From Caulobacter sp. (GTDB lineage: Bacteria > Pseudomonadota > Alphaproteobacteria > Caulobacterales > Caulobacteraceae): DNA of 64,000 bases. Every line of letters starts with the position of its first letter. Within the stretch, counting starts at the first letter, position 1. Of the stretch, positions 43,152 to 56,354 are shown piece by piece. The notes under the pieces are model-generated. The model made no database searches. It was not told where the DNA came from and saw nothing but the letters and a program-made list of their open reading frames with translations. The stretch is from assembly GCA_028291265.1 (NCBI GenBank), contig JAQGIK010000056.1, positions 62,001 to 126,000 of the forward strand, written 5' to 3'. Made by a program: the position numbers and the translations under genes.

Positions 43152-45505
43152 CGCCGCTTTCCCCCGCCCTTGCCGCTCTTGCCAGGCCCCCGGGAGAAAC
43201 CCGGACCACCCTTGCGCGGCGGACCGCCCCGCGTATTGCCACCATCCCTGAACTGACGTCGCACGCCAAGCCGCGGCTTGGGCGCATTGGGGTCGGCCTT
43301 GGCCGGCTCGCTGAGCATTTCGAACAGCAGGCCGCCGGTCACCGGCGTCGCCTCGCGCAGCTTGACCTCGACCGCCATGCCCAGGGGCCAGCGCGCGCCG
43401 GTGCGTTCGCCGACCAGGGCATGCAGCCGCTCGTCGTGGACGAAGTATTCCTCGCCAAGCGTCGAGACCGGGACCAGGCCGTCGGCGCCGGTCTCCTCCA
43501 GCCGCACGAACAGGCCGAAGCGCGTCACGCCGGTGATCCGGCCGGGGAAGGTCGCGCCGACCCGGTCGGCCAGGAAGCTGGCCACATAGCGGTCGGTGGC
43601 GTCCCGCTCGGCGGCCATGCTGCGGCGCTCGGCGAAGGTGATCTTCTCGGCGGTGTCCTTGATCTGGCTGATGTCGCCGTCGGTCAGGCCGTCGTCGCCG
43701 AGACCCAGGGCCCGGATCAGCGCCCGGTGCACGATCAGGTCGGCATAGCGCCGGATCGGGCTGGTGAAGTGGGCGTATTTCGCCAGGTTCAGGCCGAAGT
43801 GGCCGATGTTGTCGCTGTTGTAGTGGGCCTGCATCTGGGTGCGCAGGACCACCTCGTTGACGATCGGCGCGTGCGGCCCCTCGCGGGTCTCGGCCAGCAG
43901 CTTGTTGAAGCGGTCGGTGCGCGGCGCCTCGCCCTTGTTCCAGGGGATGCCGAGCGTCTCGAGGAACTCGCCCAGCGACTGCATCTTCTCCATCGAGGGG
44001 GTGTCGTGGACCCGGTAGATCAGCGGCGTCTTCTTCTGCTCCAGGGTCTCGGCGGCGCAGACGTTGGCCTGGACCATCATCTCCTCGATCAACCGGTGGG
44101 CTTCCAGGCTGCGGCGGCGCTCGATGGAGACGATCTCGCCTTCCGGATTGAAGCGGATGCGGCGCTCGTCGCTCTCGATGGCCAGGGGCGACCGCGCGCG
44201 GCGGCCCGCCAGCATGACGTGGTAGGCGGCCCATAGCGGCTTGATGATGCTGTCGACCAGCGGCCCGGTCTGGTCGTCGGGCCGGCCTTCGCTGGCCGCT
44301 TGGGCCTGTTCGTAGGAGAGCTTGGCGGCCGAGCGCATCAGGCCGCGGACGAAGCGGTGGCTGCGTTTCCGCCCATCGGCCCCGAACACCATCCGCACGG
44401 CCATGGTCGCCCGGTTCTCGCCTTCGCGCAGGCTGCACAGGCCCGCCGACAGCCGCTCGGGCAGCATCGGCTCGACCCGGTCGGGGAAGTAGGTGGAGTT
44501 GCCCTTCTCGCGCGCCTCGGCGTCGAGCGCCGTGCCGTGGCGCACGTAGGCGGCGACGTCGGCGATGGCCACCCAGACCACCCAGCCGCCTTCGTTGCGG
44601 GCGTCGTCGTCGGGATGGGCGTAGACGGCGTCGTCGTGGTCGCGGGCGTCGGACGGGTCGATGGTGATCAATGGCAGGTCGCGCAGGTCCTCGCGGCCCT
44701 TCAGGGTCGGTTCCCGCGCCGCTTCGGCCTCGGCCTCGGCCTGCGGGCTGAAGCCGGTCGGGATGCCGTGGGCGTGGATGGCGATCAGGGATGCGGCGCG
44801 GGGCTCGTCCTCGCGGCCGACCACCTCCAGCAGCTTGCCGTTCTTGGGACCGTAGCGTTCCCGCGGGCCGCCCAGCTGGATCTGGGCGACGACCAGGTCG
44901 CCGTCCTTGAGGTCGCGGCCGTCGTGCTCGCTGAGCAACAGCACATCGCGGCTCTTGCGGTCGACCGGTTCGACGCGGATCTCGCGGCGCACCTTGCGGA
45001 CCACGCCGAGGATCTTGTGGGCGCTCTGGCCCAGCCGCTTGATGATGCGGGCCTCGACCTCGCCGTTCTCCAGCCGCTCGTAGCGGACCAGCAGCTTGTC
45101 GCCGAGGCCAGGGGCGCCCGCCGTCTTCTCGGCCGCGTCCGGCGCCAGTCGTGCCAGCGGCGCGTCGTCGCCGCCCTTGCTCAGCCGCACGAAGAGGTCG
45201 CCGTCGGCATCGCGCTCGACCACTTCGGCGACGCCGACTGGCGGCAGCGCCCCGGCCTCGGCGAAGCCGCGCCGGCCGCGTTTGCCCAAATCCCCCTTGG
45301 CCTCGAGCTCACGCAGCATCTCGCGCAGCGCCCGCCGATCGGCGCCCTTCAGCCCGAAGTGACGGGCGATGTCGGCCTTCCCGGCCTCGCCGGCGTCGCG
45401 CAGGAAGGCGATCAGCGTTTCCTTGTCGGGCAGACCTTGAGGGACCTTGGCGGACGTCTTCTTCGAGACCGTGGGCGCGCGGGAGAATGTGGGGGGCTTA
45501 GCCAT
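43148..45505 (-). CDS. rnr: Ribonuclease R
   Basis: Processive 3'-to-5' exoribonuclease of the RNB family that degrades structured RNA. It is 785 aa: an N-terminal helix-turn-helix-like domain (about 25-75), cold-shock domains, the RNB catalytic core (ITIDPSDARDHDDAVYAHPD with the metal-binding Asp cluster, and YAHFTSPIRRYADLIVHRAL), an S1 domain (FPGRITGVTRFGLFVRLEETGADGLV), and a basic Gly/Arg/Lys-rich tail. All catalytic residues are visible. Downstream DUF4424 overlaps by 4 bases. Confidence 0.95.
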   Translation of the reverse strand: MAKPPTFSRAPTVSKKTSAKVPQGLPDKETLIAFLRDAGEAGKADIARHFGLKGADRRALREMLRELEAKGDLGKRGRRGFAEAGALPPVGVAEVVERDADGDLFVRLSKGGDDAPLARLAPDAAEKTAGAPGLGDKLLVRYERLENGEVEARIIKRLGQSAHKILGVVRKVRREIRVEPVDRKSRDVLLLSEHDGRDLKDGDLVVAQIQLGGPRERYGPKNGKLLEVVGREDEPRAASLIAIHAHGIPTGFSPQAEAEAEAAREPTLKGREDLRDLPLITIDPSDARDHDDAVYAHPDDDARNEGGWVVWVAIADVAAYVRHGTALDAEAREKGNSTYFPDRVEPMLPERLSAGLCSLREGENRATMAVRMVFGADGRKRSHRFVRGLMRSAAKLSYEQAQAASEGRPDDQTGPLVDSIIKPLWAAYHVMLAGRRARSPLAIESDERRIRFNPEGEIVSIERRRSLEAHRLIEEMMVQANVCAAETLEQKKTPLIYRVHDTPSMEKMQSLGEFLETLGIPWNKGEAPRTDRFNKLLAETREGPHAPIVNEVVLRTQMQAHYNSDNIGHFGLNLAKYAHFTSPIRRYADLIVHRALIRALGLGDDGLTDGDISQIKDTAEKITFAERRSMAAERDATDRYVASFLADRVGATFPGRITGVTRFGLFVRLEETGADGLVPVSTLGEEYFVHDERLHALVGERTGARWPLGMAVEVKLREATPVTGGLLFEMLSEPAKADPNAPKPRLGVRRQFRDGGNTRGGPPRKGGPGFSRGPGKSGKGGGKRR

Positions 45506-45540
45506 GACGCTGGCATAACGCGCCAGGCGCCCGAGCGCAC

Positions 45541-47106
45541 CTACTGCGTGACGAGCAGGGTGTAGCCGAGCGTCCGCTTCTCGCCCGGCGCCAGCACGAC
45601 GGGCATCACCCGCCCACCATCGCGCGCCACCAGCTTGGCGCTGGAGGCGGTCACCTTGTAGATCCTGCCATAGTCCAGCAGCCGGAGTTCAAAGGCGGCC
45701 GGGGCGGCGGTGTTGTTCTCGGCCTCGAAGGCATAGACGAACTGGGTCCTGCGTTTGCCCTTGCTGGTCTGACTGACCAGCTTCGGCGTCACCTGGATCT
45801 GCCGCGAGTCCTGCAGCACCAGGTCGAACGGGGCGCCGACGGCGCTGTTCTCGAATTTGAATTCGCCGGCCAGCAGGTGGCCGTTGGCTGTTTCCTGGCC
45901 GATCATGGCGTTGCCGCCCGGCAGGGGCCGGCCGAGGCCGGTCTCCTTGCGGTTCTTCATCCGCAGCATGAGCTGAACCGGCAGGTCCTTCTGATCGGGA
46001 TTCCAGGTCGCGCCCGGCCAGCTGGTGAAGCGGTAGACACGGTCGAACGCCACGCCGTCGGCATCGAGCATCAGCAGCTGCTTGGTCTGCCGCGCCGCGA
46101 CCGTGGTCGGGTAGGGCAGGGTGTAGAGTTTGTAGTCGCCCAGTTCCGACTGCTCCGCCTCTTTGGCGGCCGGCGGCGGCGCTGGGGGCGGCGGCGGCGG
46201 TGGCGGGGCCATAGCCATCGGCGCGTTGGCCTGGATGCGGTTGCCAGTGACGACGACGTCGCCGTACTCGTCATAGGCAAAGTTCAGGCCCGTCGGCCAG
46301 CAGGCCGGGCTCTTCGACTTGCCGTAGGCGACGGTCGCCCGGGTGCGCCAGCTGCGCGCCACGTCGCCGGCCACCACCTGGGTCGGGGCGTCGGTGAAGG
46401 TGGTGGCGCTGTCGTTGCTGAGGGTGATCCAGCCGGTCAGGTCCAGGGTCTTGCCGTCGGGCCGCACCGTGGCGACGTAGTTGGCTTTCCAGTTGAGACC
46501 CACGGCCAGATAGGTCAGCCGCACCCGGTAGGTCCCGGCCGCCTTGGCGCGAACCGTCATCGACAGGGTCGGCTCGGGGCTGAGGCTGTCGGGGATCTTG
46601 TCGAACACCAGCCGCTCGGGCTCGCCGCTGCAGCCCAGCGCCTCGATGCCGCCGTCGACCTCGAGCACCACGCCGTTGGGGCCCGAGCGCAGCACCGCCG
46701 GGCGAACCGTCTCGACGCCGGTGACCGGATTGGTCCGCACCAGCCGCACCGGCTCGCCGATGGCGGCGGCGACGATCGAGCCGGGGCTCATCAGGTTGTA
46801 GTCCTGGTTGCGCTCGACCATCTGGGCCGGCAGCCCGTCCAGCGCCGCCGTCGCCGGCACGATGCCGGCCGCCACGCCGCGGAAGGTGACCTTGCTGTGG
46901 CCGGCCTGGACCTCGACGGTCCGCCATTCGGTAACCAGGGCCAGGCCCGAGCGGCCGTCGTAATAGCCGCGCGCGCCGTAGGGGTCCTGATAGATGGTCA
47001 GGGCCACGGAGTCGGGTTTGGCCGAGACGCTTTGCGCATGCGCCGCCACCGGCCCTGTCAGCAGGGCCAGCGCAACACTCAGCGCTGTCAGCCAGGACCG
47101 GCGCAT
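45541..47106 (-). CDS. DUF4139 domain protein (paralogue 1)
   Basis: Exported protein of 521 aa. A Sec signal peptide ends after VAAHAQ (about residue 25). The DUF4139 pattern is seen in VERNQDYNLMSPGSIVAAAIGEPV, LTYLAVGLNWKANYVATVRP, LTGWITLSNDSATTFTDAPTQVVAGDV, and KQLLMLDADGVAF. A proline-rich insertion (eight consecutive Pro) lies at about residue 305, and an unusual YGDVVVTGNRI segment just before it resembles the plug start of TonB-dependent receptors. Function unknown. It starts 4 bases after the stop of the second DUF4139 gene. Confidence 0.8.
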   Translation of the reverse strand: MRRSWLTALSVALALLTGPVAAHAQSVSAKPDSVALTIYQDPYGARGYYDGRSGLALVTEWRTVEVQAGHSKVTFRGVAAGIVPATAALDGLPAQMVERNQDYNLMSPGSIVAAAIGEPVRLVRTNPVTGVETVRPAVLRSGPNGVVLEVDGGIEALGCSGEPERLVFDKIPDSLSPEPTLSMTVRAKAAGTYRVRLTYLAVGLNWKANYVATVRPDGKTLDLTGWITLSNDSATTFTDAPTQVVAGDVARSWRTRATVAYGKSKSPACWPTGLNFAYDEYGDVVVTGNRIQANAPMAMAPPPPPPPPAPPPAAKEAEQSELGDYKLYTLPYPTTVAARQTKQLLMLDADGVAFDRVYRFTSWPGATWNPDQKDLPVQLMLRMKNRKETGLGRPLPGGNAMIGQETANGHLLAGEFKFENSAVGAPFDLVLQDSRQIQVTPKLVSQTSKGKRRTQFVYAFEAENNTAAPAAFELRLLDYGRIYKVTASSAKLVARDGGRVMPVVLAPGEKRTLGYTLLVTQ

Positions 47107-47110
47107 GGGG

Positions 47111-48448
47111 TCAGTAGCCGCTGTCGACCGTGAACGTCAGGATGGTCTCGCCATTGGCCGGGACGGGAACGTCCCAGGCCAGGGTCTGGGCGTTGAGCCG
47201 GGCCGACTTGAGGCTTTCCTCGATCAGCTTGCCGTCGCGCCCGAGGCCGCCTTGCCGGACCTGCACGACCACCGGCTCGGGCCGGGCGTTGCGGACCACA
47301 TAGCTCATCGCATAGCGGGTCTTGGTGGCGCTCTTCTTGTCGGTCGTGACCACGGTCGGGGTCAGGGTGACGTCGAAGGCCTGGCCGGTCTGGATCGAAA
47401 GGTCGGAGCCGGCCGGGGTGTGGCCGATCTCGTTCTCGCCGATGAACTTGGGATTGCCCTGCTGGTCGCGGACGTAGAAGCGCACGGCGCCGGCCGGCAT
47501 CGGCTCGCCCTGGCCGCCGAATTCCAGCTTCACGGCCGCCGAGATCGGCTGCTCGCGGCTGGCGAAACCGCCGAGATCGACGCGGTAGGCCTTGCGGGCC
47601 GGAGCCCCGATGACGTCCAGGAAGCTGACCTGCTTGGTCTGGTTCTGGGCGATCGTCGTCCGCTCCTTCAGCGGATAGAGGTAGTAGTCGGCCAGCGGCA
47701 CGGCCGTGCCGGTCAGGGTTCCGGCCGAACTCACCGCCGGTGGCGAGTAGCGGATGCCCGAGCCGACATTGCCGGCCACCAGCTGCACCTCGGCGTCGGC
47801 GAAATCGACGCCGGTGCTGTTGCTCAGCGTCACCCAGCCCTGGACGTCGATCTTGCCGTTCTTCTCGTCGAACAGGGCGACGTAGTCGGCGTTCCAGCCC
47901 ATGCCGTTGGTCAGGTAGGTCAGCTTGGCGGCGCGAGGACCGGCCTGGGCCGAATCCACCGTCACCGACAACGTTGGCCGGGCCCGCAGGTTCGGCGGCG
48001 CCTTGTCGAAGATCACCCGGGTCGGCACGCCGTCCTCGCGCAGGATCTCGATGCGGTCGCCGATCTGCAGCACGACGCCGTTGTTGACGGCCAGCACCTT
48101 GGCGCGTTCGGTGGTCTGCTGGCCGTTGCCGGGGTTGGTGCGGACGATGGTCACCGTCTCGCCGACGGCCTTTTCCATCAGGGTCTGGGGGCTGAGCAGA
48201 TCGTAGTCGAAGTTCTGCTCGATGATCGAGATGCCGGGGGCCGACAGGGTGACGGTCTCGGAGCGGATCTGCGGCGAGACGTCCTTGAACTCGATGCGCT
48301 GGCGGCCGGCGCTCAGGGTTTCGGTGCGGGTGTCCTCCACCAGGGTCTGGCCCGAGTTGTAGATGGTCACCGAGAGCTGGCGCGGCTGCGCGGCGGCTGT
48401 GGTGGCGGCGAGCGCGAGCACGCTGGCGGCGAGGAGAAGACGACGCAT
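47111..48448 (-). CDS. DUF4139 domain protein (paralogue 2)
   Basis: Exported protein of 445 aa. I chose ATG 48448, giving the signal peptide RRLLLAASVLALAATTAAA. The domain pattern parallels its neighbour: IIEQNFDYDLLSPQTLMEKAVGETV, LTYLTNGMGWNADYVALFDE, VQGWVTLSNSTGVDFADAEVQLVAGNV, and KQVSFLDVIGAPARKAYRV. It lacks the proline-rich insertion of paralogue 1. The two genes are separated by 4 bases and evidently arose by duplication. The family has no assigned biochemical activity; beta-rich structure suggests a surface or periplasmic scaffold (inference). Confidence 0.8.
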   Translation of the reverse strand: MRRLLLAASVLALAATTAAAQPRQLSVTIYNSGQTLVEDTRTETLSAGRQRIEFKDVSPQIRSETVTLSAPGISIIEQNFDYDLLSPQTLMEKAVGETVTIVRTNPGNGQQTTERAKVLAVNNGVVLQIGDRIEILREDGVPTRVIFDKAPPNLRARPTLSVTVDSAQAGPRAAKLTYLTNGMGWNADYVALFDEKNGKIDVQGWVTLSNSTGVDFADAEVQLVAGNVGSGIRYSPPAVSSAGTLTGTAVPLADYYLYPLKERTTIAQNQTKQVSFLDVIGAPARKAYRVDLGGFASREQPISAAVKLEFGGQGEPMPAGAVRFYVRDQQGNPKFIGENEIGHTPAGSDLSIQTGQAFDVTLTPTVVTTDKKSATKTRYAMSYVVRNARPEPVVVQVRQGGLGRDGKLIEESLKSARLNAQTLAWDVPVPANGETILTFTVDSGY

Positions 48449-48523
48449 GGAACGACCCCGCTTGAATTTACAAAGGCAAGTTTGCATGGCTCCGCAGGCC
48501 TGTCGATAGCCATTTGCGGGATG

Positions 48524-48808
48524 TCAGCCGCGACGGCGCATGCGCCTGGCCCGGCGCGCCAGGACCAGGCCGACGATCAGGCAGATGATCCCGGGCAGCA
48601 TGCAGACCAGGCCGAAGACGGCGAAGACGATCAGAAAGCCGAACCCGTAGCTCGGAGCCCCGTCGAGGATGTAGGACCCGCTCACCGCCAGGGTGCAGCC
48701 GCCGGTCAGGAACAGCCAGACGGCGCCGAGGGTGATCAGAATGCGCGCGCCGACGCTCTTCTCGTAGGCCTCGCCCGAGGGCGGAAAGGGCGGCGGCGGA
48801 TTGATCAT
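48524..48808 (-). CDS. Small two-helix membrane protein
   Basis: Protein of 94 aa with a cytoplasmic proline-rich N-terminus (MINPPPPFPPSGEAYE), two membrane segments (ILITLGAVWLFLTGGCTLAVSG and FLIVFAVFGLVCMLPGIICLIVGLVL) and a basic tail. It shares the core GGCTL and the pattern PG(I/L)xxLxxG with the 81 aa protein encoded upstream, so the two are paralogues. Its ATG overlaps the stop of that gene by 4 bases. It ends the radical SAM gene cluster. Function unknown. Confidence 0.72.
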   Translation of the reverse strand: MINPPPPFPPSGEAYEKSVGARILITLGAVWLFLTGGCTLAVSGSYILDGAPSYGFGFLIVFAVFGLVCMLPGIICLIVGLVLARRARRMRRRG

Positions 48809-49050
48809 CGTCGGGGCCGCAGGACAAAGCGGCCGAGCAGCAGGAACACCAGGCCCGGGACGGCGCAGATCGCCCCGACGACCACGCACAGCAACAGCCA
48901 CCCCAGGAAGCCCTGGCCGCCGCCGGACCCGAGCATCTGGACGGAGAAGACAAGGGTGCAGCCGCCGCACAGCACCATCCAGAGGATGCCGACGGTGGCC
49001 AGCGCCCGGCCCCAGAATTGCCTGACCGGCCCGATGTCCTGTTCGCTCAT
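48805..49050 (-). CDS. Small two-helix membrane protein
   Basis: Protein of 81 aa with two membrane segments (ALATVGILWMVLCGGCTLVFSV and LGWLLLCVVVGAICAVPGLVFLLLG) and an RPRR end. GGCTL and VPGLVFLLLG match its neighbour. Its start overlaps the radical SAM gene stop (ATGA) and its stop overlaps the next start (ATGA), so it is translationally coupled on both sides. It could be a small partner of the membrane-associated enzymes encoded upstream (inference). Confidence 0.72.
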   Translation of the reverse strand: MSEQDIGPVRQFWGRALATVGILWMVLCGGCTLVFSVQMLGSGGGQGFLGWLLLCVVVGAICAVPGLVFLLLGRFVLRPRR

Positions 49051-50483
49051 GGCAGCCGTCCCTGTCCCCTGGCCAGCGCCGCCGCGCCCTCGGCGCCGGA
49101 GCGGTAGAAGGTGTTGTAGGTGTCGAAGGGGATGATCCGGCCGTCGGGCTCGACGAAGTGGACGCAGGACCGCTTCACCGTCCCGAGGTCGAAATTGTAC
49201 CGGTCGAGGAACTGGCTGATCACCACCCGGAAGGTGTGTTCGTAGGCGAGGTCCTCCGGCACGGCGGCCTGCGGCAGGCAGCAGAGCAGGCTGGCCAGCT
49301 TGTCCGAGGTGTCGGCCTGGGCGGTCGACAGCGACAGCAGTTCGAACACCCGCTGCTGCAGCTCCGGATAGCCTTCGAAGGTGACGGTGTTGGGGGCGGC
49401 CGCGACGAACAGCTCGCGCGGCAAGAGCGAGGTCACCGGCGTCACCGTCTGGCCGTCGCGCAGGCCGTAGCCGATGCAGATCTGGTCGGGGTTGCAGGGC
49501 AGGGGGATCAGATCCTCGAGGCCGAAGACCCCGGCCTTGGCGATCTCGCGGCGGATCTGGCTGGCCAGCATGCGGTTGGTCTTGGGATCGAAGCCGTCGT
49601 TGCGGCCGGCGTCCTGGATCGGCTGGAAGGTGACGCCGCGCACGCACCGCCACTGGAGGGCGAAGCGCACGGTTTCGGCGATGTCCTGGTCGTTGACGCC
49701 CTTCTTGATGGTCGAGACCAGGGTGGTGGAGATGCCGGCCGCTTCCAGCGCCTCGAGCGCCTCGATGCGGACCCTGGAGAGATCGGCGCCGCGGATGTCC
49801 TTCAGGGCCTCGGGGCGCAGGCTGTCGAACTGCAGATAGACCTCGAACCTGGGCATGTAGGCCGCCAGCTTCTGCGCGAAGCCGGGCTCGCGGGCGATGC
49901 GCAGGCCGTTGGTGTTGATCATCAGGTGGCGGATGGGCCGGCGTTTGGCGGCGTCGAGGATCTCGAAGAACTGCGGGTGCAGGGTCGGCTCGCCGCCGGA
50001 GATCTGCACCAGGTCGGGCTCGCCCTCGCTGGCCACCAGGATGTCGAGCATGTGCTCGATCTCGGCCAGAGGCCGGTGACCGGTGCGCTTGATCGAGCTG
50101 TCGGCGAAACAGACCGGACAGGAGAGGTTGCAGGCCTCGTTGACCTCGACGATGGCCAGACAGCTGTGCTGTTCGTGGTCGGGGCAGAGGCCGCAGTCAT
50201 AAGGACAGCCGAAATCGGTCTTCGTGTGCGGGGCCAGCGGCCGGTCGCCGGGCTTCAGCCAGTCCTTCTGGGCCTTCCAGTAGTCGAGGTCGTCGCTGAT
50301 CAGCGTTTTCTGGACGCCGTGCTCGCGGCAGCGCTTCTGGTAGAAGACATCCTGGCCCTCGACGAGGATCTTGGCCGGGACCAGGGCCAGGCAGACCTCG
50401 CACAGGCTGGTGGTCTGGCCGAAGAACAGGTAGGGCGCGACCTTGCGGATCGGAGCGTCAGCCGCCGGCGCGGGCTCGCCCAA
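49047..50483 (-). CDS. Multi-cluster radical SAM protein, MJ0619/Tes-like
   Basis: Protein of 478 aa. The radical SAM motif CNLSCPVC is at Cys118, 122, 125. Before it come a rubredoxin-like set (Cys28, Cys31, Cys52 in SLCEVCLALVPAKI and KRCREHG) and the segment GCPYDCGLCPDHEQHSC (Cys93, 97, 100, 108); more Cys occur in LPCNPDQIC, LLCC and RSCVHF near the C-terminus. From memory this layout is that of the MJ0619/tetraether lipid synthase-like family, which joins lipid chains; no search was possible. A TTG start at 50483 is the only good start, since TGA lies in frame just upstream. It overlaps the repaired end of the Lgt-like gene by 26 bases and the next small membrane gene by 4. Confidence 0.8.
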   Translation of the reverse strand: MGEPAPAADAPIRKVAPYLFFGQTTSLCEVCLALVPAKILVEGQDVFYQKRCREHGVQKTLISDDLDYWKAQKDWLKPGDRPLAPHTKTDFGCPYDCGLCPDHEQHSCLAIVEVNEACNLSCPVCFADSSIKRTGHRPLAEIEHMLDILVASEGEPDLVQISGGEPTLHPQFFEILDAAKRRPIRHLMINTNGLRIAREPGFAQKLAAYMPRFEVYLQFDSLRPEALKDIRGADLSRVRIEALEALEAAGISTTLVSTIKKGVNDQDIAETVRFALQWRCVRGVTFQPIQDAGRNDGFDPKTNRMLASQIRREIAKAGVFGLEDLIPLPCNPDQICIGYGLRDGQTVTPVTSLLPRELFVAAAPNTVTFEGYPELQQRVFELLSLSTAQADTSDKLASLLCCLPQAAVPEDLAYEHTFRVVISQFLDRYNFDLGTVKRSCVHFVEPDGRIIPFDTYNTFYRSGAEGAAALARGQGRLP

Positions 50484-51173
50484 GGTCGTTTCGCCAATAG
50501 ACCATCAACCCCGCCGACAGGATGTGGAAGAGGTTAAACGGGCCCAGGACCGCTGGATAGGGCTTGAGGAACTCCCAGACGAAACGCTGGCGCCGTAGGC
50601 GATGCAGAGGGCGTAGAAGCCGCGCTGCAGGGCCCAGGGCCGCCGTCTGGCCAGGCCGAACAGGTAGGCGGCCAGGAAGACGGCCATGGTCAGGGACTCG
50701 TAGATCTGCACCGGATGGCGGCCGACGCCGTCGCCCAACTCGACGGCCCAGGGCAGGGATGTGGGCGAGCCATAGGTGCCGTCGGTCAGGCCGGTGAACA
50801 GGCAGCCCCAGCGGCCGATGACGACGCCGAGCGCGAACGGGGCGGTGAACACCCCGCCGGTCGAGCCCTTCACGCCGCGCACGGCCTTGTAGAGCTCGAC
50901 CCCGACGATGGCCCCGACCAGGGCCCCCGCGACGCTGTGCGACAGGGCGGGGTGGGGTCCCTGCAGGCTGCTGAGCGACCCCGCCAGCCAGGCGCCGGGC
51001 ACGGCGCCGAGGGCCAGGGCCACGAAGTAGCCGGGGCCGGTCTTCATGGCCAGCGCCTGCGTCGCCTCCCGCAGCCGCCAGCGCGACACGGCCCAGCCAA
51101 GCGCCAGGCCGCCGCCCCAGGCCAGCAGGTCGAAGACGATGTGGGCGTAAGGCGCGGTGGGGACGTGGATCAT
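50458..51173 (-). pseudogene. Lgt-like (prolipoprotein diacylglyceryl transferase family) gene with one-base frameshift
   Basis: The frame from ATG 51173 gives an integral membrane protein with Lgt-family features: VVIGRWGCLFTGLTDGTYGS around residue 118, SLPWAVELGDG, and RHPVQIYESL near residue 152. After GFYALCIAYGA (residue 195) this frame turns into low-complexity Ser-rich sequence and stops at 50505. Adding one base near 50589 restores QRFVWEFLKPYPAVLGP, NLFHILSAGLMVYW and a stop at 50458, a natural Lgt-type C-terminus (238 aa). So either this copy is disrupted or there is a sequence error. It is shorter than and distinct from a canonical Lgt, which must be encoded elsewhere. topA lies 20 bases upstream on the same strand. 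Confidence 0.75.
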
Positions 51174-51193
51174 GCCGTCCCCACCGGCTCAGG

Positions 51194-53860
51194 TCAGGCC
51201 TTGGCCTTGGGCGCGGCCTTCTTCGCCGCCGCCTTCTTCTTGGCGACCACGGCCTTGCCGGCGATGCGCTTCTCGGCCGGATTCTTGGCCGGCGGCTTGT
51301 CGCCCGGCTTCTTGGCGGCCTTCACCGCCGGAGCCTTCTTCGCCGCCGCCTTCCTGACCGGTTTCTTGCCGCCGCCTTTGGCGACGCGCTCGGCGATCAG
51401 GCCGACGGCCTCCTCGAGGGTCACCTCCAGCGGGTCCTTGCCGCGCGGCACATTGGCGTTGGTCGAGCCGTGCTTGATGTAGGGCCCGAAGCGGCCCGAC
51501 AGGATCTTGATCGGCGCGCCGTCTTCCGGGTGGTTGCCCAGTTCCTTCAGCGCCGAGGCCTGACCCCGCGCGCCACGTCCGCCGGCCCGCTTCTCGGCCA
51601 GCACCGCCACGGCGCGGTTCAGGCCGACGTCGAACACCTCGTCGGCGCTCTCCAAGTTGGCGTAGGTGCCCTCGTGCAGCACATAGGGTCCATACCGGCC
51701 GATACCGGCCTGGATCATCTTGCCGCCCTCGGGATGCGGCCCGACATCGCGCGGCAGCTCCAGCAGGCGCAGGGCCTTGTCGATATCCATCGTTTCCGGC
51801 GACCAGCCCTTGGGCAGGCTGGCCCGCTTGGGCTTCTCGCCGGCCTCTTCGACATAGGGGCCGAAACGGCCGTTCTTCAGCCACACCGCCTGCATGGTCT
51901 TGGGGTTCACCCCCAGCTCGCGGTCAGTGACCTCGGCGGCGTCGCCGTCGCCTTCCGACTGGGCGATCGGCCGGGTGAAGCGGCACTCGGGATAGTTGGA
52001 ACAGCCGATGAAGGCCCCGAACTTGCCGGTCTTCAGCGACAGGCGGCCGGTGCCGCAGGTGGTGCAGAGGCGCGGGTCGGAGCCGTCTTCCTTCTGCGGG
52101 AAGATGTGCGGGCCGAGGCTCTCGTTGAGGGCGTCGAGCACCTGGCTGACGCGCAGCTCGCCGATGCCGTCGGCGGCGGCGTGGAAGTCGGTCCAGAACT
52201 CGCGCAGCAGCGCCTTCCAGTCCAGCTTGCCGTCGCTGACCAGGTCGAGCTTCTCTTCCAGCCCGGCGGTGAAATCGTATTCGACGTAGCGGGCGAAGAA
52301 CTGCTCGAGGAAGGCCGTGACCAGCCGTCCCTTGTCCTCGGGGATGAAGCGGTTCTTCTCCATCCGCACATAGGCGCGGTCGCGCAGCACGGTCAGGATC
52401 GAGGCGTAGGTCGAGGGCCGGCCGATGCCGAGCTCTTCCATCTTCTTGACCAGGCTGGCTTCCGAATAGCGCGGCGGCGGTTCGGTGAAGTGCTGGTCGG
52501 CCTTGACGTTCAGCACCCGGGCGGCGGCGCCCTCGTTGACGGCCGGCAGGCGGGCGCCATCCTCGTCCTCGGCGTCGTCGCGGCCCTCTTCGTAGACGGC
52601 GAGGTAGCCGGGGAACTGGATGACCTGGCCGGTGGCGCGCAGGCCGGTGTGGCCGTCGCCGCTTTCCAGCTCGATGGTCGTGCGTTCGATGCGGGCCGCT
52701 TCCATCTGGCTGGCGATCATCCGCTTCCAGATCAGCTCGTAGAGCCGGCCCAGATCGCCATCGAGGCGCAGCTTGCCGGGATTGCGGTTCAGCGAGGTCG
52801 GCCGGATGGCTTCGTGGGCTTCCTGGGCGTTCTTGGCCTTGGTCTTGTAGATGCGGGCGCTCTCGGGGACGTAGTCCTTGCCATAGAGGCCGGCGATGAC
52901 CTCACGGGCCTCGGTCAGCGCTTCCGGCGCCGCCTGCACGCCGTCGGTCCGCATGTAGGTGATCAGGCCGACGGTCTCGCCGCCGATGTCGATGCCCTCG
53001 TACAGCTTCTGGGCCGCCTGCATGGTGCGCTGGGCGTTGAAGCCGAGCTTGCGGCTGGCTTCCTGCTGCAGGGTCGAGGTGGTGAAGGGCGGGGGCGGGG
53101 AGCGCCGCGCCGGCTTCTTCTCGACCGAATGGATGCTGAAGGCGGCGGCCGAGACGGCGTCGCGCGCCGCATGGGCGGTCGCCTCGTCGCCCAGGTCGAA
53201 CTTGGTCAGCTTCTTGTCGGCGTGCTTGACCAGGCGGGCGGTGAAGGGCTCGGCCCCGGCCGAGACCTCGGCGTCGACGCTCCAGTATTCCTGGGTGCGG
53301 AACTTCTCGATCTCGACCTCGCGGTCGACGATCAGGCGCAGCGACACCGACTGCACGCGGCCGGCCGAGCGCGAGCCCGGCAGCTTGCGCCACAGCACCG
53401 GCGACAGGGTGAAGCCGACCAGATAGTCGAGCGCCCGCCGCGCCAGGTAGGCGTCGACCAGTTCCATGTCGATCTGGCGCGGGTGGGCCATGGCGTCGAG
53501 CACGGCGGTCTTGGTGATGGCGTTGAAGGTGACGCGGCTGACGGCCTTGTCCTTGATCGCCTTCTTCTTCTGCAGGATCTCCAGGACGTGCCAACTGATG
53601 GCCTCGCCTTCGCGATCCGGGTCGGTGGCCAGGATGATGCCGTCGGCGCCCTTCAGGGCGTCGGCGATGTCGCTGATGCGTTTGGAGGACTTGGCGTCCA
53701 CCTCCCAGAACATCGCGAAGTCCTCGTCCGGCTTCACCGACCCGTCCTTCGACGGCAGGTCGCGGACGTGGCCATAGGACGCCAGAACGGTGAACCCGGG
53801 CCCCAGATATTTGTTGATGGTCTTGGCCTTGGCCGGGCTCTCGACGACGACGACGTGCAT
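51194..53860 (-). CDS. topA: DNA topoisomerase I
   Basis: Type IA topoisomerase that relaxes negative supercoils. I chose ATG 53860 (888 aa), which begins at the conserved MHVVVVESPAKAKTINKYLG; TTG 53881 would add seven residues. The Toprim acidic motif is ATDPDREGEAISWH, the catalytic Tyr302 is in GLITYMRTDG, a single C4 zinc motif is CTTCGTGRLSLKTGKFGAFIGCSNYPEC, then repeated topo C-terminal modules (KPKRASLP, GRYGPYVLHE, SGRFGPYIKHG) and a Lys/Ala-rich tail typical of alphaproteobacterial TopA. Confidence 0.96.
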   Translation of the reverse strand: MHVVVVESPAKAKTINKYLGPGFTVLASYGHVRDLPSKDGSVKPDEDFAMFWEVDAKSSKRISDIADALKGADGIILATDPDREGEAISWHVLEILQKKKAIKDKAVSRVTFNAITKTAVLDAMAHPRQIDMELVDAYLARRALDYLVGFTLSPVLWRKLPGSRSAGRVQSVSLRLIVDREVEIEKFRTQEYWSVDAEVSAGAEPFTARLVKHADKKLTKFDLGDEATAHAARDAVSAAAFSIHSVEKKPARRSPPPPFTTSTLQQEASRKLGFNAQRTMQAAQKLYEGIDIGGETVGLITYMRTDGVQAAPEALTEAREVIAGLYGKDYVPESARIYKTKAKNAQEAHEAIRPTSLNRNPGKLRLDGDLGRLYELIWKRMIASQMEAARIERTTIELESGDGHTGLRATGQVIQFPGYLAVYEEGRDDAEDEDGARLPAVNEGAAARVLNVKADQHFTEPPPRYSEASLVKKMEELGIGRPSTYASILTVLRDRAYVRMEKNRFIPEDKGRLVTAFLEQFFARYVEYDFTAGLEEKLDLVSDGKLDWKALLREFWTDFHAAADGIGELRVSQVLDALNESLGPHIFPQKEDGSDPRLCTTCGTGRLSLKTGKFGAFIGCSNYPECRFTRPIAQSEGDGDAAEVTDRELGVNPKTMQAVWLKNGRFGPYVEEAGEKPKRASLPKGWSPETMDIDKALRLLELPRDVGPHPEGGKMIQAGIGRYGPYVLHEGTYANLESADEVFDVGLNRAVAVLAEKRAGGRGARGQASALKELGNHPEDGAPIKILSGRFGPYIKHGSTNANVPRGKDPLEVTLEEAVGLIAERVAKGGGKKPVRKAAAKKAPAVKAAKKPGDKPPAKNPAEKRIAGKAVVAKKKAAAKKAAPKAKA

Positions 53861-53996
53861 GAAGTGTGGCTTGAATCTCAAATGCGGGAGGCCGATGGGC
53901 CCCCCTCAAGGGCGCGGAAGGTGCGTCGCCCGATGGGGGAATGTCAACGCACGGTCGAATCAAGTGGTGTCTGCGGGCCAAATTGCCACGGTAGCG

Positions 53997-54026
53997 GCCA
54001 CCTTCTCCCGACAAGCGGGAGAAGGA
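53997..54026. repeat. Partial family B repeat element
   Basis: The hairpin half of the family B element (ACCTTCTCCC, loop, GGGAGAAGGA) in the inverted orientation, without the TCGGATGAGGGC half. It lies between divergent topA and the ExoD-like gene, and is single here rather than paired. Confidence 0.75.
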
Positions 54027-54126
54027 CCCCCTTTTCGAGGTCGCGTCTCATCCAACAATCGACAAGATTTCCATTTCTTCACGGGCGCGTGAAATGCGCC
54101 TCCCTATATACTCGCCACCAAGCCCC

Positions 54127-54774
54127 ATGACCGAGTCTGCCCATCCGCCCCGCGTCTCCGAAATCCTCGCCGGCATCGCCGCGCAGGAGCATGAGACCGT
54201 GTCGGTCAGCGACGTCACCCACGCCTTCGGCGACCGGGCGTTCGGGGCGCTGATGTTCGTGTTCGCCGCGCCGCTGGCCCTGCCGATGCCGCCGGGGGTT
54301 TCGGCGGTGCTCGGCGCGCCGCTGCTGTTCATCACCGTGCAGTGGATGATCGGCCGCGATCACCTGTGGCTGCCGGGGGTGATCGCCAACCGCACCATGA
54401 GCCGCACCGACTATGTGGCCCTGATGGGCAAGCTGACGCCCTACCTGGCCTGGCTGGAGCGGCGACTGCGCCGCCGGCTGACCATCCTCTACGGGCCGAT
54501 CATCGACCGGCTGACCGGGCTGTTCTGCGTCATCCTGGCGACCATCGTCTTCCTGCCGATCCCGTTCGGCAACATGCTGCCCAGCTTCGCCATCGCCGCC
54601 TTCGCGCTTGGCCTGGCCGAGCGGGACGGCGTCGCCGCCTTGCTCGGCTGGCTGAGCGGCCTGATCAGCATCGGCATCCTGGCCCTGCTGTGGAAAGCCA
54701 TCGTCGCCGCCACCCTGGTCTTCTTCGGGGTGCTCGGCGGCAACCTCGGCTGGTTCGCGGGTCTGTTCAGCTAG
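54127..54774 (+). CDS. ExoD-like membrane protein
   Basis: Protein of 215 aa in the ExoD family named after a Rhizobium exopolysaccharide synthesis gene. It has a soluble N-terminus (VSEILAGIAAQEHETVSVSDV) and about four membrane segments; GDRAFGALMFVFAAPLALPMPPG and LERRLRRRLTILYGP are typical, and FLPIPFGNMLPSFAIAAFALGLAERDG is the strongest family signature. ATG 54127 was chosen over ATG 54094, because CTATATACTC near 54105 looks like promoter sequence. Biochemical role is uncertain. It overlaps the convergent esterase by 4 bases. Confidence 0.82.
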   Translation: MTESAHPPRVSEILAGIAAQEHETVSVSDVTHAFGDRAFGALMFVFAAPLALPMPPGVSAVLGAPLLFITVQWMIGRDHLWLPGVIANRTMSRTDYVALMGKLTPYLAWLERRLRRRLTILYGPIIDRLTGLFCVILATIVFLPIPFGNMLPSFAIAAFALGLAERDGVAALLGWLSGLISIGILALLWKAIVAATLVFFGVLGGNLGWFAGLFS

Positions 54775-56354
54775 GTTCCCTGCTGGATGAAGGGGACCTT
54801 CTCGAACAGCCGCCGCTCTTCGCCGCGCGGGTCGTCAACCAGCTTCGGCTCGACATTCCAGACCATCGTCTGCCGCCGCGCCAGCGAATAGGGCTCCCAG
54901 CGCGGCAGGCCTTCGCCGTTCGGATCGCCGCTGTACGCAAAGCGGATGAAGGCGTCCATCATCAGGCCGCTGACGCGCTTCGCATCTTCTCCCGTCCCCG
55001 TGATCACCCCCGGCGCGTCCAGCGTCCCGAACACCAGGGGGATGTCGAGGGTATGGGGCGCGCCCCACATGCCGCCGTCCTTGGGCGAGGCCCAGTCGAG
55101 CTGGTAGGCGAACACCGGCGAGCCCTGTTTCGCCCGCAGTTCGGCCTCGACGATAGCGGCCCGCCAGGAGCGCGAGGCGGTGGTGGCGGCGAAGAAGACG
55201 TCGCTCGGCGAATAGGCCGGATAGAGCTCGCGATAGCGGCCGATGACGAGGCCCGGGTCGATGTCGACCCGCATGTTGGCGACCAGCTTGCCGGGCAGTT
55301 CGTCCCAGGTCAGGGCGTACATGGCCGGGTCGCTGAAGAAGCCGCGCGTCTCGTCGTGGGTGTTGCCGATCATCATCGGGATGGCGGCGCTCTGCCGCGG
55401 GGCGTCGGGATAGAAGGGATGGCGGGTCAGGCTGCGCTCGTCCAGCACCGGTCCGAAATAGAGACCGCCCGAACCGATCACCGGATCGGTCGCCCCCAGC
55501 GCCTCGACGATCCGCGCCGCGGGCACGGTGGCCAGGTCTTCGGGACGGACCTTCAGGGCGTCGAGCAGCGCCTGTGTCCGCCGCGTGGCGTTGCCGGGGC
55601 CCGAGGCGGTCAGCTGCTGGCCGCTCATGGTGGCGGCCCGGTGGAACAGGCCCCCGGCCGCCGGCATGGCCATCAGGGTGGCGATCTTGGCCCCGCCGCC
55701 GGACTGGCCGAACAGCATGACCCGGTCCGGATCGCCCCCGAAGGCGGCGATGTTGTCCCGCACCCACTGCAAGGCCAGCACCAGGTCCAGCATGCCGGCG
55801 TTGCCCCCATCGAGGTACCTGCCCTCGAAGCCGGGAATCAAGCGGTTGAAATAGGCGTAGCCGAACGGGCCCAGCCGGTGGTTGGCGGTCACCACCACGA
55901 CATCGCCCCGGATCGCCAGCCGCGCGCCGTCGTACCAGGGGCTGGAGCCCGTCCCGGTCATGTAGGCGCCGCCGTGGATGTAGAGCATCACCGGCCGCTT
56001 CGCCGCGTCGGCGCCGGGCGTCCAGACGTTGAGGAACAGGCAGTCCTCCGACTGATCCTCCTCCTTGCCCCGCTGCGGCGAGGCGTGGCCGTAAGATGTG
56101 CAGGGCAGGGGCGTCTTCCACGGCGTCGGCGCGGCCGGCGGCTGAAAGCGGCGCGGCCCGGTGTCGGCCCCGTAGCGGACGCCCTTGAAGACCAGCAGGC
56201 CGTTCTCCCGCAGGCCCTGCACCGGCCCGTGAACCGTCCGCACGACGGGATCGCCGCGCTTTGCCGAAGCGTTTCCGGCCAGCGCCATCGTCGCCAGACC
56301 GGTCGTCGCCGCCAGAACGCGACGCCGGCTGATGAGGGGTGTTTCGCTGCTCAT
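54771..56354 (-). CDS. Carboxylesterase type B, Tat-exported
   Basis: Alpha/beta hydrolase of 527 aa. The twin-arginine signal is SRRRVLAATTGLATMALAG near the N-terminus. EDCLFLNVWTP and the oxyanion motif YIHGGAYMTG are typical of the family; the nucleophile is in LFGQSGGGAKIATLMAMPAA, and the acidic and His triad members lie in NTHDETRGFF and GAPHTLDIPLVFG. It would hydrolyse carboxylic esters outside the cytoplasm; the substrate is unknown. The catalytic set appears intact. A short GH43-like gene remnant starts 54 bases from it on the other strand. Confidence 0.9.
   Translation of the reverse strand: MSSETPLISRRRVLAATTGLATMALAGNASAKRGDPVVRTVHGPVQGLRENGLLVFKGVRYGADTGPRRFQPPAAPTPWKTPLPCTSYGHASPQRGKEEDQSEDCLFLNVWTPGADAAKRPVMLYIHGGAYMTGTGSSPWYDGARLAIRGDVVVVTANHRLGPFGYAYFNRLIPGFEGRYLDGGNAGMLDLVLALQWVRDNIAAFGGDPDRVMLFGQSGGGAKIATLMAMPAAGGLFHRAATMSGQQLTASGPGNATRRTQALLDALKVRPEDLATVPAARIVEALGATDPVIGSGGLYFGPVLDERSLTRHPFYPDAPRQSAAIPMMIGNTHDETRGFFSDPAMYALTWDELPGKLVANMRVDIDPGLVIGRYRELYPAYSPSDVFFAATTASRSWRAAIVEAELRAKQGSPVFAYQLDWASPKDGGMWGAPHTLDIPLVFGTLDAPGVITGTGEDAKRVSGLMMDAFIRFAYSGDPNGEGLPRWEPYSLARRQTMVWNVEPKLVDDPRGEERRLFEKVPFIQQGT

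Follow-up and report, generated by a model that had tools for sequence, protein, structure and literature searches.

The window considered here is a 64,000-nucleotide stretch of a Caulobacter sp. genome (assembly GCA_028291265.1, contig JAQGIK010000056.1, positions 62,001 to 126,000). On its minus strand, it carries four adjacent genes: one for an Lgt-like membrane protein of the LGT family, one for a Tes-like radical SAM (S-adenosylmethionine) enzyme, and two for small membrane proteins. As sequenced, the main frame of the Lgt-like gene spans 50505..51173 and keeps both the GR..C signature (with the equivalent of Arg143 in E. coli Lgt) and the RHPVQIYE segment; an off-frame tail at 50458..50589 holds the segment QRFVWEFLKP, which supplies the Arg239 and Glu243 equivalents in intact relatives. 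The radical SAM gene (49047..50483; TTG start; 478 aa) is identified by Pfam, NCBIfam and structure matches. It is followed by two genes for two-helix proteins, small protein 1 (48805..49050; 81 aa), with the sequence VLCGGCTL, and small protein 2 (48524..48808; 94 aa), with FLTGGCTL. An initial annotation, made from the sequence letters, had proposed this gene order and these families, and both are borne out. It had also described three overlaps, two of which are present: the radical SAM stop and the start of small protein 1, and likewise small proteins 1 and 2, share 4-nucleotide (nt) ATGA overlaps. The third, a 26-base overlap between the Lgt-like and radical SAM genes, is replaced in the sequence as it stands by a 21-nt gap between the end of the Lgt-like open reading frame (ORF) at 50505 and the radical SAM start at 50483. 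Gene calls throughout derive from ORF scoring rather than from a trained gene caller.

The radical SAM protein is a member of the Tes/MJ0619 fold family. Pfam recovers Radical_SAM (90.8 bits) and Zn_ribbon_HMPTM (62.3 bits), both above cut-off, and a search with the single sequence recovers the GDGT-MAS entry 7TOL at E 4.9e-59. GDGT-MAS (7TOL/7TOM), the archaeal Tes, is the sole strong solved relative, with a profile match at E 7e-100 over positions 13-459 of 470. An AlphaFold2 model of the protein (mean predicted local distance difference test score, pLDDT, 81.9; predicted template modelling score, pTM, 0.84; residues 381-410 poorly predicted) aligns with 7TOM and 7TOL at TM-scores of 0.79 and 0.77 over approximately 496 columns (E 1.6e-36) in a structure comparison; the next match after Tes is MoaA, at a TM-score of 0.41 (E 9.3e-11). 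The cysteine layout noticed in the initial annotation is present as described and is invariant in all 39 aligned relatives, comprising a rubredoxin-type site (C28-X2-C31-X20-C52-X2-H55), an N-terminal auxiliary cluster (C93-X3-C97-X2-C100, with H103) and the SAM cluster (C118-X3-C122-X2-C125). The protein has every ligand that Lloyd et al. describe for the rubredoxin-type iron and for the N-terminal and SAM clusters of Tes (PMC9433317), and it also shares with archaeal Tes its whole-length fold and a C-terminal auxiliary domain.

The region of the C-terminal cluster differs from that of archaeal Tes: Cys438, Met439 and Tyr459 align to Ile422, Ser423 and Phe443. In place of Cys438, C330 and C401/C402 (each position at least 90% conserved in the aligned relatives), together with the invariant C440, are candidate ligands for this cluster on the basis of their conservation. 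In the extracts of the published work on archaeal Tes that are drawn on here, Met439 and Tyr459 are described as fully conserved in 1000 archaeal homologues, and the variant M439A as still active (PMC9433317); the difference at Met439 and Tyr459 therefore limits the use of the name Tes rather than the inference of mechanism. The curated models are likewise restrictive. The best-scoring NCBIfam family is TrsS, a radical SAM (seleno)protein (NF045646), which matches over nearly the whole length at 296 bits, yet its cut-off is 490; the Tes model (NF045702) gives 260.7 bits against an equivalog cut-off of 450. Both models are matched at E 1e-30 or better by all 39 aligned relatives, and curated peptide-maturase models score far below either. 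The sole locus above the TrsS cut-off (Lachnospiraceae, 580.3 bits) has no adjacent Lgt-like gene and lies outside the Lgt-linked tree group described below. The identification of the enzyme as simply Tes or TrsS is rejected on the cut-offs, the changed residues and its separate position in the tree; of the original Tes/MJ0619 assignment, the fold family stands and Tes itself does not. No radical SAM family with another proven role was found to claim the enzyme: TrsS, the best curated model, is one for which the extracts of the sources state no role, and its score is below cut-off.

The Lgt-like neighbour belongs to the LGT family, as had been proposed. Pfam LGT (PF01790) scores 48.3 bits on the window copy against a cut-off of 24.9, and up to 124.9 bits in the relatives scanned, and a profile of the Lgt-like family matches E. 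coli Lgt (5AZB) at E 6.4e-15. Its score against TIGR00544 is far below threshold (14 versus 118.9). It is not the cell's ordinary Lgt, which is encoded elsewhere in all six genomes checked; all four carriers have the Lgt-like gene in addition. Among 74 Lgt-like relatives, several residues of the E. coli enzyme are nearly constant (Gly142 in 74; Arg143, Gly154, Tyr235 and Arg239 in 73 each; Glu202 in 72), and the Glu243 equivalent is kept in 67 and is Asp in six. The equivalent of Asn146 is Cys in 73 of the 74, and the equivalents of His103, Glu151 and Tyr26 are also changed; in six ordinary Lgt proteins, all four of these sites are as in E. coli. According to the extracts available, E. coli Lgt mutants at Arg143, Arg239, His103, Glu151 and Tyr26 are inactive, and a role in binding the lipobox peptide has been proposed for His103 (PMC4728403). 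With the arginines and their companions kept and these four sites altered, the Lgt-like proteins appear to have retained the donor-side chemistry and to have remodelled the sites for the acceptor and for selection.

The initial annotation overlooked a shift of frame near 50587 in the window's Lgt-like gene. The main ORF stops at 50505, and the catalytic tail lies in the frame that ends at 50458, so that the Arg143 equivalent is in frame and the Arg239 segment is in another; the 26-nt overlap with the radical SAM gene arises only if reading crosses near 50587 into the latter frame. An intact relative used as query matches the gene as two abutting pieces in different frames (G000:C118:112586-113173 and 112494-112589), and in one alignment of Lgt-like proteins all 17 other relatives have the tail in frame. 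Many relatives carry intact copies, Caulobacter ginsengisoli DSM 18695 (L075) being an example. The source genome (G000) is a draft in 198 contigs, and the shift near 50587 may therefore be either a sequence error or a true mutation. Separately, a genome of the same genus (G007) contains a second, broken Lgt-like piece in two frames (G007:C1:3947194-3947495; L091 and L094), 47-61% identical to an intact relative and with no radical SAM match reported there, which suggests that copies of this module are lost.

The pairing of the Lgt-like and radical SAM genes is real and conserved. Among 61 relatives, full-length radical SAM homologues are found in G000, G007, G036 and G046, and these four genomes are also the ones with Lgt-like proteins at E 5e-20 or better; G027, G034 and G036 give weaker Lgt-like matches, at E 1e-7 to 1e-5, that in G036 being its normal Lgt. 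The module is present in 3 of 37 genomes of the genus, the window genome included. The co-occurrence that the initial annotation had suggested checking proves strict, and it reaches far beyond the Caulobacterales. Of 398 sampled Pseudomonadota genomes, in which only the first four or six candidates per genome were scored, 12 contain the radical SAM enzyme, and exactly the same 12 contain an Lgt-like protein at 198 bits or more, the next score being 104.6 bits; in these carriers the two genes share a strand and are separated by no more than 817 nt. The Lgt-like neighbour was thus not found to be missing from related genomes. A scan of one genome per species yielded 54 loci in alphaproteobacterial, gammaproteobacterial, Bacteroidota, Planctomycetota and Myxococcota records, some of whose titles are possibly mis-binned (L052 and L053, labelled Planctomycetaceae, fall among Sphingomonas relatives in the tree). 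Altogether, at 75 of 89 radical SAM loci an Lgt-like gene lies no more than 2.6 kb away on the strand of the enzyme, in either gene order; the 89 include a few identical pairs (e.g., L043/L104 and L083/L121), 16 duplicate loci having been excluded beforehand.

More distant lineages vary in their partners. The TrsS model is matched in 22 of 149 Planctomycetota-group genomes; 12 of 15 loci fetched from this group with that model have an Lgt-like partner, several in reversed order, and two of the three without one group with archaeal Tes. Among Actinomycetota, plasmids of Mycobacterium branderi and M. avium (L142, L143) carry a distant form of the module, with two small genes between the radical SAM gene and an Lgt-like gene annotated as a prolipoprotein diacylglyceryl transferase family protein. 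The plasmid-borne homologues of haloarchaea and of Mycolicibacterium vanbaalenii (L140, L141, L145) are followed directly by a methyltransferase gene, not by an Lgt-like one. One Pseudomonadota metagenome-assembled genome (G453; L083, L116, L120-L123) has five TrsS-model matches; L116 is Lgt-linked, and L120-L123 have no Lgt-like gene in reach. A larger conserved neighbourhood is ruled out by clustering of the genes within 6 kb, in which only the pair itself is widely shared (57 and 38 loci) and the next family, a small membrane family, reaches 12 loci. Pfam scans of ten further module proteins gave matches above cut-off for two, both Lgt-like.

The phylogeny of the radical SAM proteins reflects this linkage. 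In a midpoint-rooted tree of 70 rows (up to 17 near-copies were dropped by hand, as were rows shorter than 300 aa or containing X), 52 rows form one group with support of 100/99. The Lgt-like gene is upstream in 47 of these and downstream in one; the four rows with none adjacent are L066 (at a contig end), L071, L072 (with an Lgt-like gene 4.4 kb away on the other strand) and L136. The Tes of M. jannaschii groups with L126 and L135, neither of which has an Lgt-like gene. Seven partner-bearing rows, three actinomycete and four from the Planctomycetota group, fall outside the 52-row group on long branches, and their placement is unsure; given a long-branch warning for the actinomycete, Lachnospiraceae and G453 rows, only the 52-row group is relied upon here.

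The module seems to have a third component in its small membrane proteins. Neither of the two in the window has a Pfam or NCBIfam family above cut-off; they align with each other around GGCTL, and the cysteine of this motif (Cys31 of small protein 1, codon 48958-48960; Cys38 of small protein 2, codon 48695-48697) corresponds to a conserved G-x-C cysteine. Of the 75 modules, 60 are accompanied by one or more small membrane ORFs in line with them, versus 2 of the 14 loci that lack an Lgt-like gene, the two being L066, at a contig end, and the methyltransferase-linked L145. A cysteine at a helix end and preceded by a small residue occurs in 82 of 91 module small ORFs versus 5 of 38 control small membrane ORFs, which come from the same loci and may include false genes; the contrast holds at below 50% identity (53/60 versus 4/34; Fisher p 9.3e-14). 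Within the branch that is mainly alphaproteobacterial (radical SAM score of at least 770), 45 of 48 modules have a small ORF whose start is no more than 15 nt from the stop codon of the enzyme gene, and 43 of these 45 proteins contain G-x-C. A set of 34 non-redundant small proteins, assembled with no motif selection (three modules without a first small ORF, proteins longer than 135 aa and those at 70% identity or more were left out), has a median identity of 27%, and its best conserved columns beside Met1 are the glycine (97%) and the cysteine (94%).

The distribution of charge in these proteins is informative as to their orientation. In a motif-selected set, Lys and Arg number 110 before helix 1 and 227 after helix 2, with 30 in the 30 residues behind the cysteine, which suggests that both protein ends lie inside and the G-x-C cysteine outside. 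Small proteins of other lineages are unlike these in sequence and have the same layout of a Lys/Arg stretch, a helix, and a cysteine after small residues. Two gammaproteobacterial-type loci, fetched after the pattern had been noticed, conform to it: L147 encodes two small proteins behind the enzyme, each with a first helix ending in GGC, and in L146 the Lgt-like gene is immediately preceded by that of an 81-aa protein containing GLC. In four Planctomycetota-group loci with the Lgt-like gene downstream (L077, L124, L125, L127), a zinc-ribbon membrane ORF upstream takes the place of the small G-x-C protein. The window's small proteins had been regarded as partners of the enzymes; because of the conserved cysteine, they are better described as candidate acceptors.

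The four-gene cluster is flanked by topA (51194-53881; Topoisom_bac, 407.8 bits) and, on the other side, by a DUF4139 gene (47111-48487). The latter falls within a minus-strand segment beside the module (45541-48487) that encodes two neighbouring, secreted-looking proteins of related layout, one with a weak DUF4139 match (33.9 bits) and the other without a Pfam match. An Rfam scan of 44000-56000 for RNA elements gave no matches.

It is possible, and we tentatively favour the idea, that the three parts act in sequence on one substrate: the Lgt-like enzyme would lipidate the cysteine of a small protein, and the Tes-like enzyme would then couple lipid chains. Lgt uses phosphatidylglycerol and acts on cysteines at the periplasmic face, in the extracts cited (PMC4728403), and the Lgt-like enzyme may take a diacylglyceryl group from the same donor, with a changed acceptor site. 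The acceptor would be the G-x-C cysteine, which is predicted to sit at the periplasmic end of a helix in a lipobox-like place. Tes is described in the published account as having two pockets that accommodate two lipids, whose chain tips it links by way of a carbon-sulfur intermediate on the third of its clusters (PMC9433317). By analogy, the Tes-like enzyme, working from the cytosolic side, could abstract hydrogen mid-membrane from the chain tip of the attached lipid or of a neighbouring phospholipid, and couple two tips, its C-terminal cluster carrying such an intermediate. This would yield a lipid, coupled or spanning the membrane, that is held by the small protein. The fold, the metal ligands, the strict gene association, the arginine pair of Lgt in relatives, and the conservation and predicted outside position of the cysteine are the basis for this scheme; from them we infer the individual reactions, the identities of donor, acceptor and product, and lipid chain coupling in a bacterium. 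With the cysteine predicted on the side where Lgt acts and lipid tips within reach of the Tes-like enzyme mid-membrane, lipidation followed by coupling is the simplest account that involves all three parts. The result is a strong but indirect lead to the substrate of the module, whose gene association is firm.

Several observations weigh against this scheme. His103 (in HGGL) is replaced in at least 73 of the 74 Lgt-like relatives (V 29, A 21, L 10, E 8, M 3, I 2), Leu stands in for Glu151 in 54, the residue types covering 71 include no Glu at that site, and Tyr26 is His in 63; a cysteine acceptor is thus not predicted by plain transfer of what is known of Lgt, and the loss of His103 appears to be the strongest single point against an acceptor of the usual type. 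The G-x-C context is not a canonical lipobox. By the search used, 15 of the 75 modules have no small membrane ORF, including Planctomycetota modules in which the Lgt-like gene comes downstream, and the small membrane ORF of the actinomycete L144 lacks the cysteine. In the alignment, Ser423 and Phe443 replace the Met439 and Tyr459 of archaeal Tes, and a Foldseek search with a model of an intact Lgt-like relative (pLDDT 94.0) gave a best E of 0.5, in a library whose inclusion of 5AZB was unchecked. The window's own Lgt-like copy is frame-shifted, and may be either inactive or an assembly error.

Some of these points would be accommodated if the product were instead a free chain-coupled or membrane-spanning lipid, with the Lgt-like enzyme remodelling head groups on a lipid acceptor, the Tes-like enzyme joining tips, and the small proteins holding the enzymes, their cysteine being structural or redox-active. 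The absence of His103, a residue tied to peptide binding, is consistent with a lipid acceptor, and the active site of Tes is described, in part of the source, as binding E. coli phosphatidic acid and holding head groups loosely (PMC9433317); membrane-spanning lipids are also what Zeng et al. (PMC8941075) and a Black Sea study (PMC11868695) propose, in the passages available, as products of bacterial Tes homologues. Such a role would leave unexplained the persistence of G-x-C on the Lgt-active side of the small proteins, and would give no reason for the involvement of an Lgt relative in particular; we regard it as unlikely, if still a serious contender. A remnant undergoing decay is a less probable explanation for the window genome: the Lgt-like gene would have lost its catalytic tail, and the remaining genes would make no product. 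The frame shift near 50587, the patchy presence within the genus (3 of 37, window genome included) and the broken, enzyme-free Lgt-like piece in G007 are all in keeping with decay, but the radical SAM gene and both small genes are open, with all ligands and cysteines kept, a sequence error is equally easy in a 198-contig draft, and intact copies elsewhere would be unaffected.

Peptide-modifying systems usually present one or two small genes with conserved cysteines beside a radical SAM gene, as is the case here, and partners vary within the family, given the methyltransferase-linked enzymes of haloarchaea and Mycolicibacterium. The module could then resemble a ribosomal-peptide system in which the radical SAM enzyme modifies the small protein, for example through a cysteine cross-link, and the Lgt-like enzyme lipidates or positions it. 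But the whole-length fold match is to a lipid enzyme, peptide-maturase models score far below TrsS and Tes, and the cysteine is predicted to be periplasmic, away from a cytosolic radical SAM enzyme; this is the explanation to which we give the least credence. As for the scheme of lipidation and coupling, an extended form of it would define a new class of lipidated micro-proteins, tiny two-helix membrane proteins in which an Lgt paralogue transfers diacylglyceryl to an outside cysteine with no cleavage of a signal peptide, and the attached chains are joined to a chain of the opposite leaflet by a bacterial branch of Tes, giving a protein-bound, membrane-spanning lipid. We consider this stronger version quite improbable as it stands. 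Were it true, many of the bacterial genes at present classed as tetraether synthases would have to be reassigned to this system.

Other radical SAM enzymes are said to couple lipid chains, including the bacterial membrane-spanning lipid synthase Mss (PMC13274423) and the GMGT synthase Gms. Both are likened to the window enzyme by described activity, not by sequence comparison. Thermotoga maritima, which we take to be an Mss carrier, has no TrsS-model match at E 1e-20 in the control set, which argues against close kinship with Mss. Bacterial Tes homologues have themselves been reported several times. In the extracts available, Zeng et al. list 456, found with a similarity cut-off of E <1e-50, and guess at branched tetraethers as their products (PMC8941075); Lloyd et al. 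note such homologues with products unknown (PMC9433317); and the Black Sea study counts them at E <1e-30 with 30% identity (PMC11868695, section 4.6), stating that none had been tested. The open-licence literature, to which our search was confined (subscription journals and preprints lay outside it), yielded no description of the Lgt link or of the small proteins.

These findings bear on how bacterial members of the family are interpreted. Branched tetraethers, which have been attributed to bacterial Tes homologues by similarity cut-offs, serve as climate proxies. The window enzyme passes a cut-off of the E <1e-50 kind (4.9e-59 against the M. jannaschii Tes entry), yet the group in which it sits is a separate one, linked to an Lgt paralogue. 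Since an Lgt-like partner accompanies 12 of the 15 Planctomycetota-group loci, and two of the three loci without one group with archaeal Tes, partner genes can separate likely tetraether makers from the Lgt-linked system. If the small proteins do prove to be acceptors, Lgt-type chemistry would gain a new outcome, and easily grown aerobic bacteria would offer a means of testing what bacterial relatives of Tes do.

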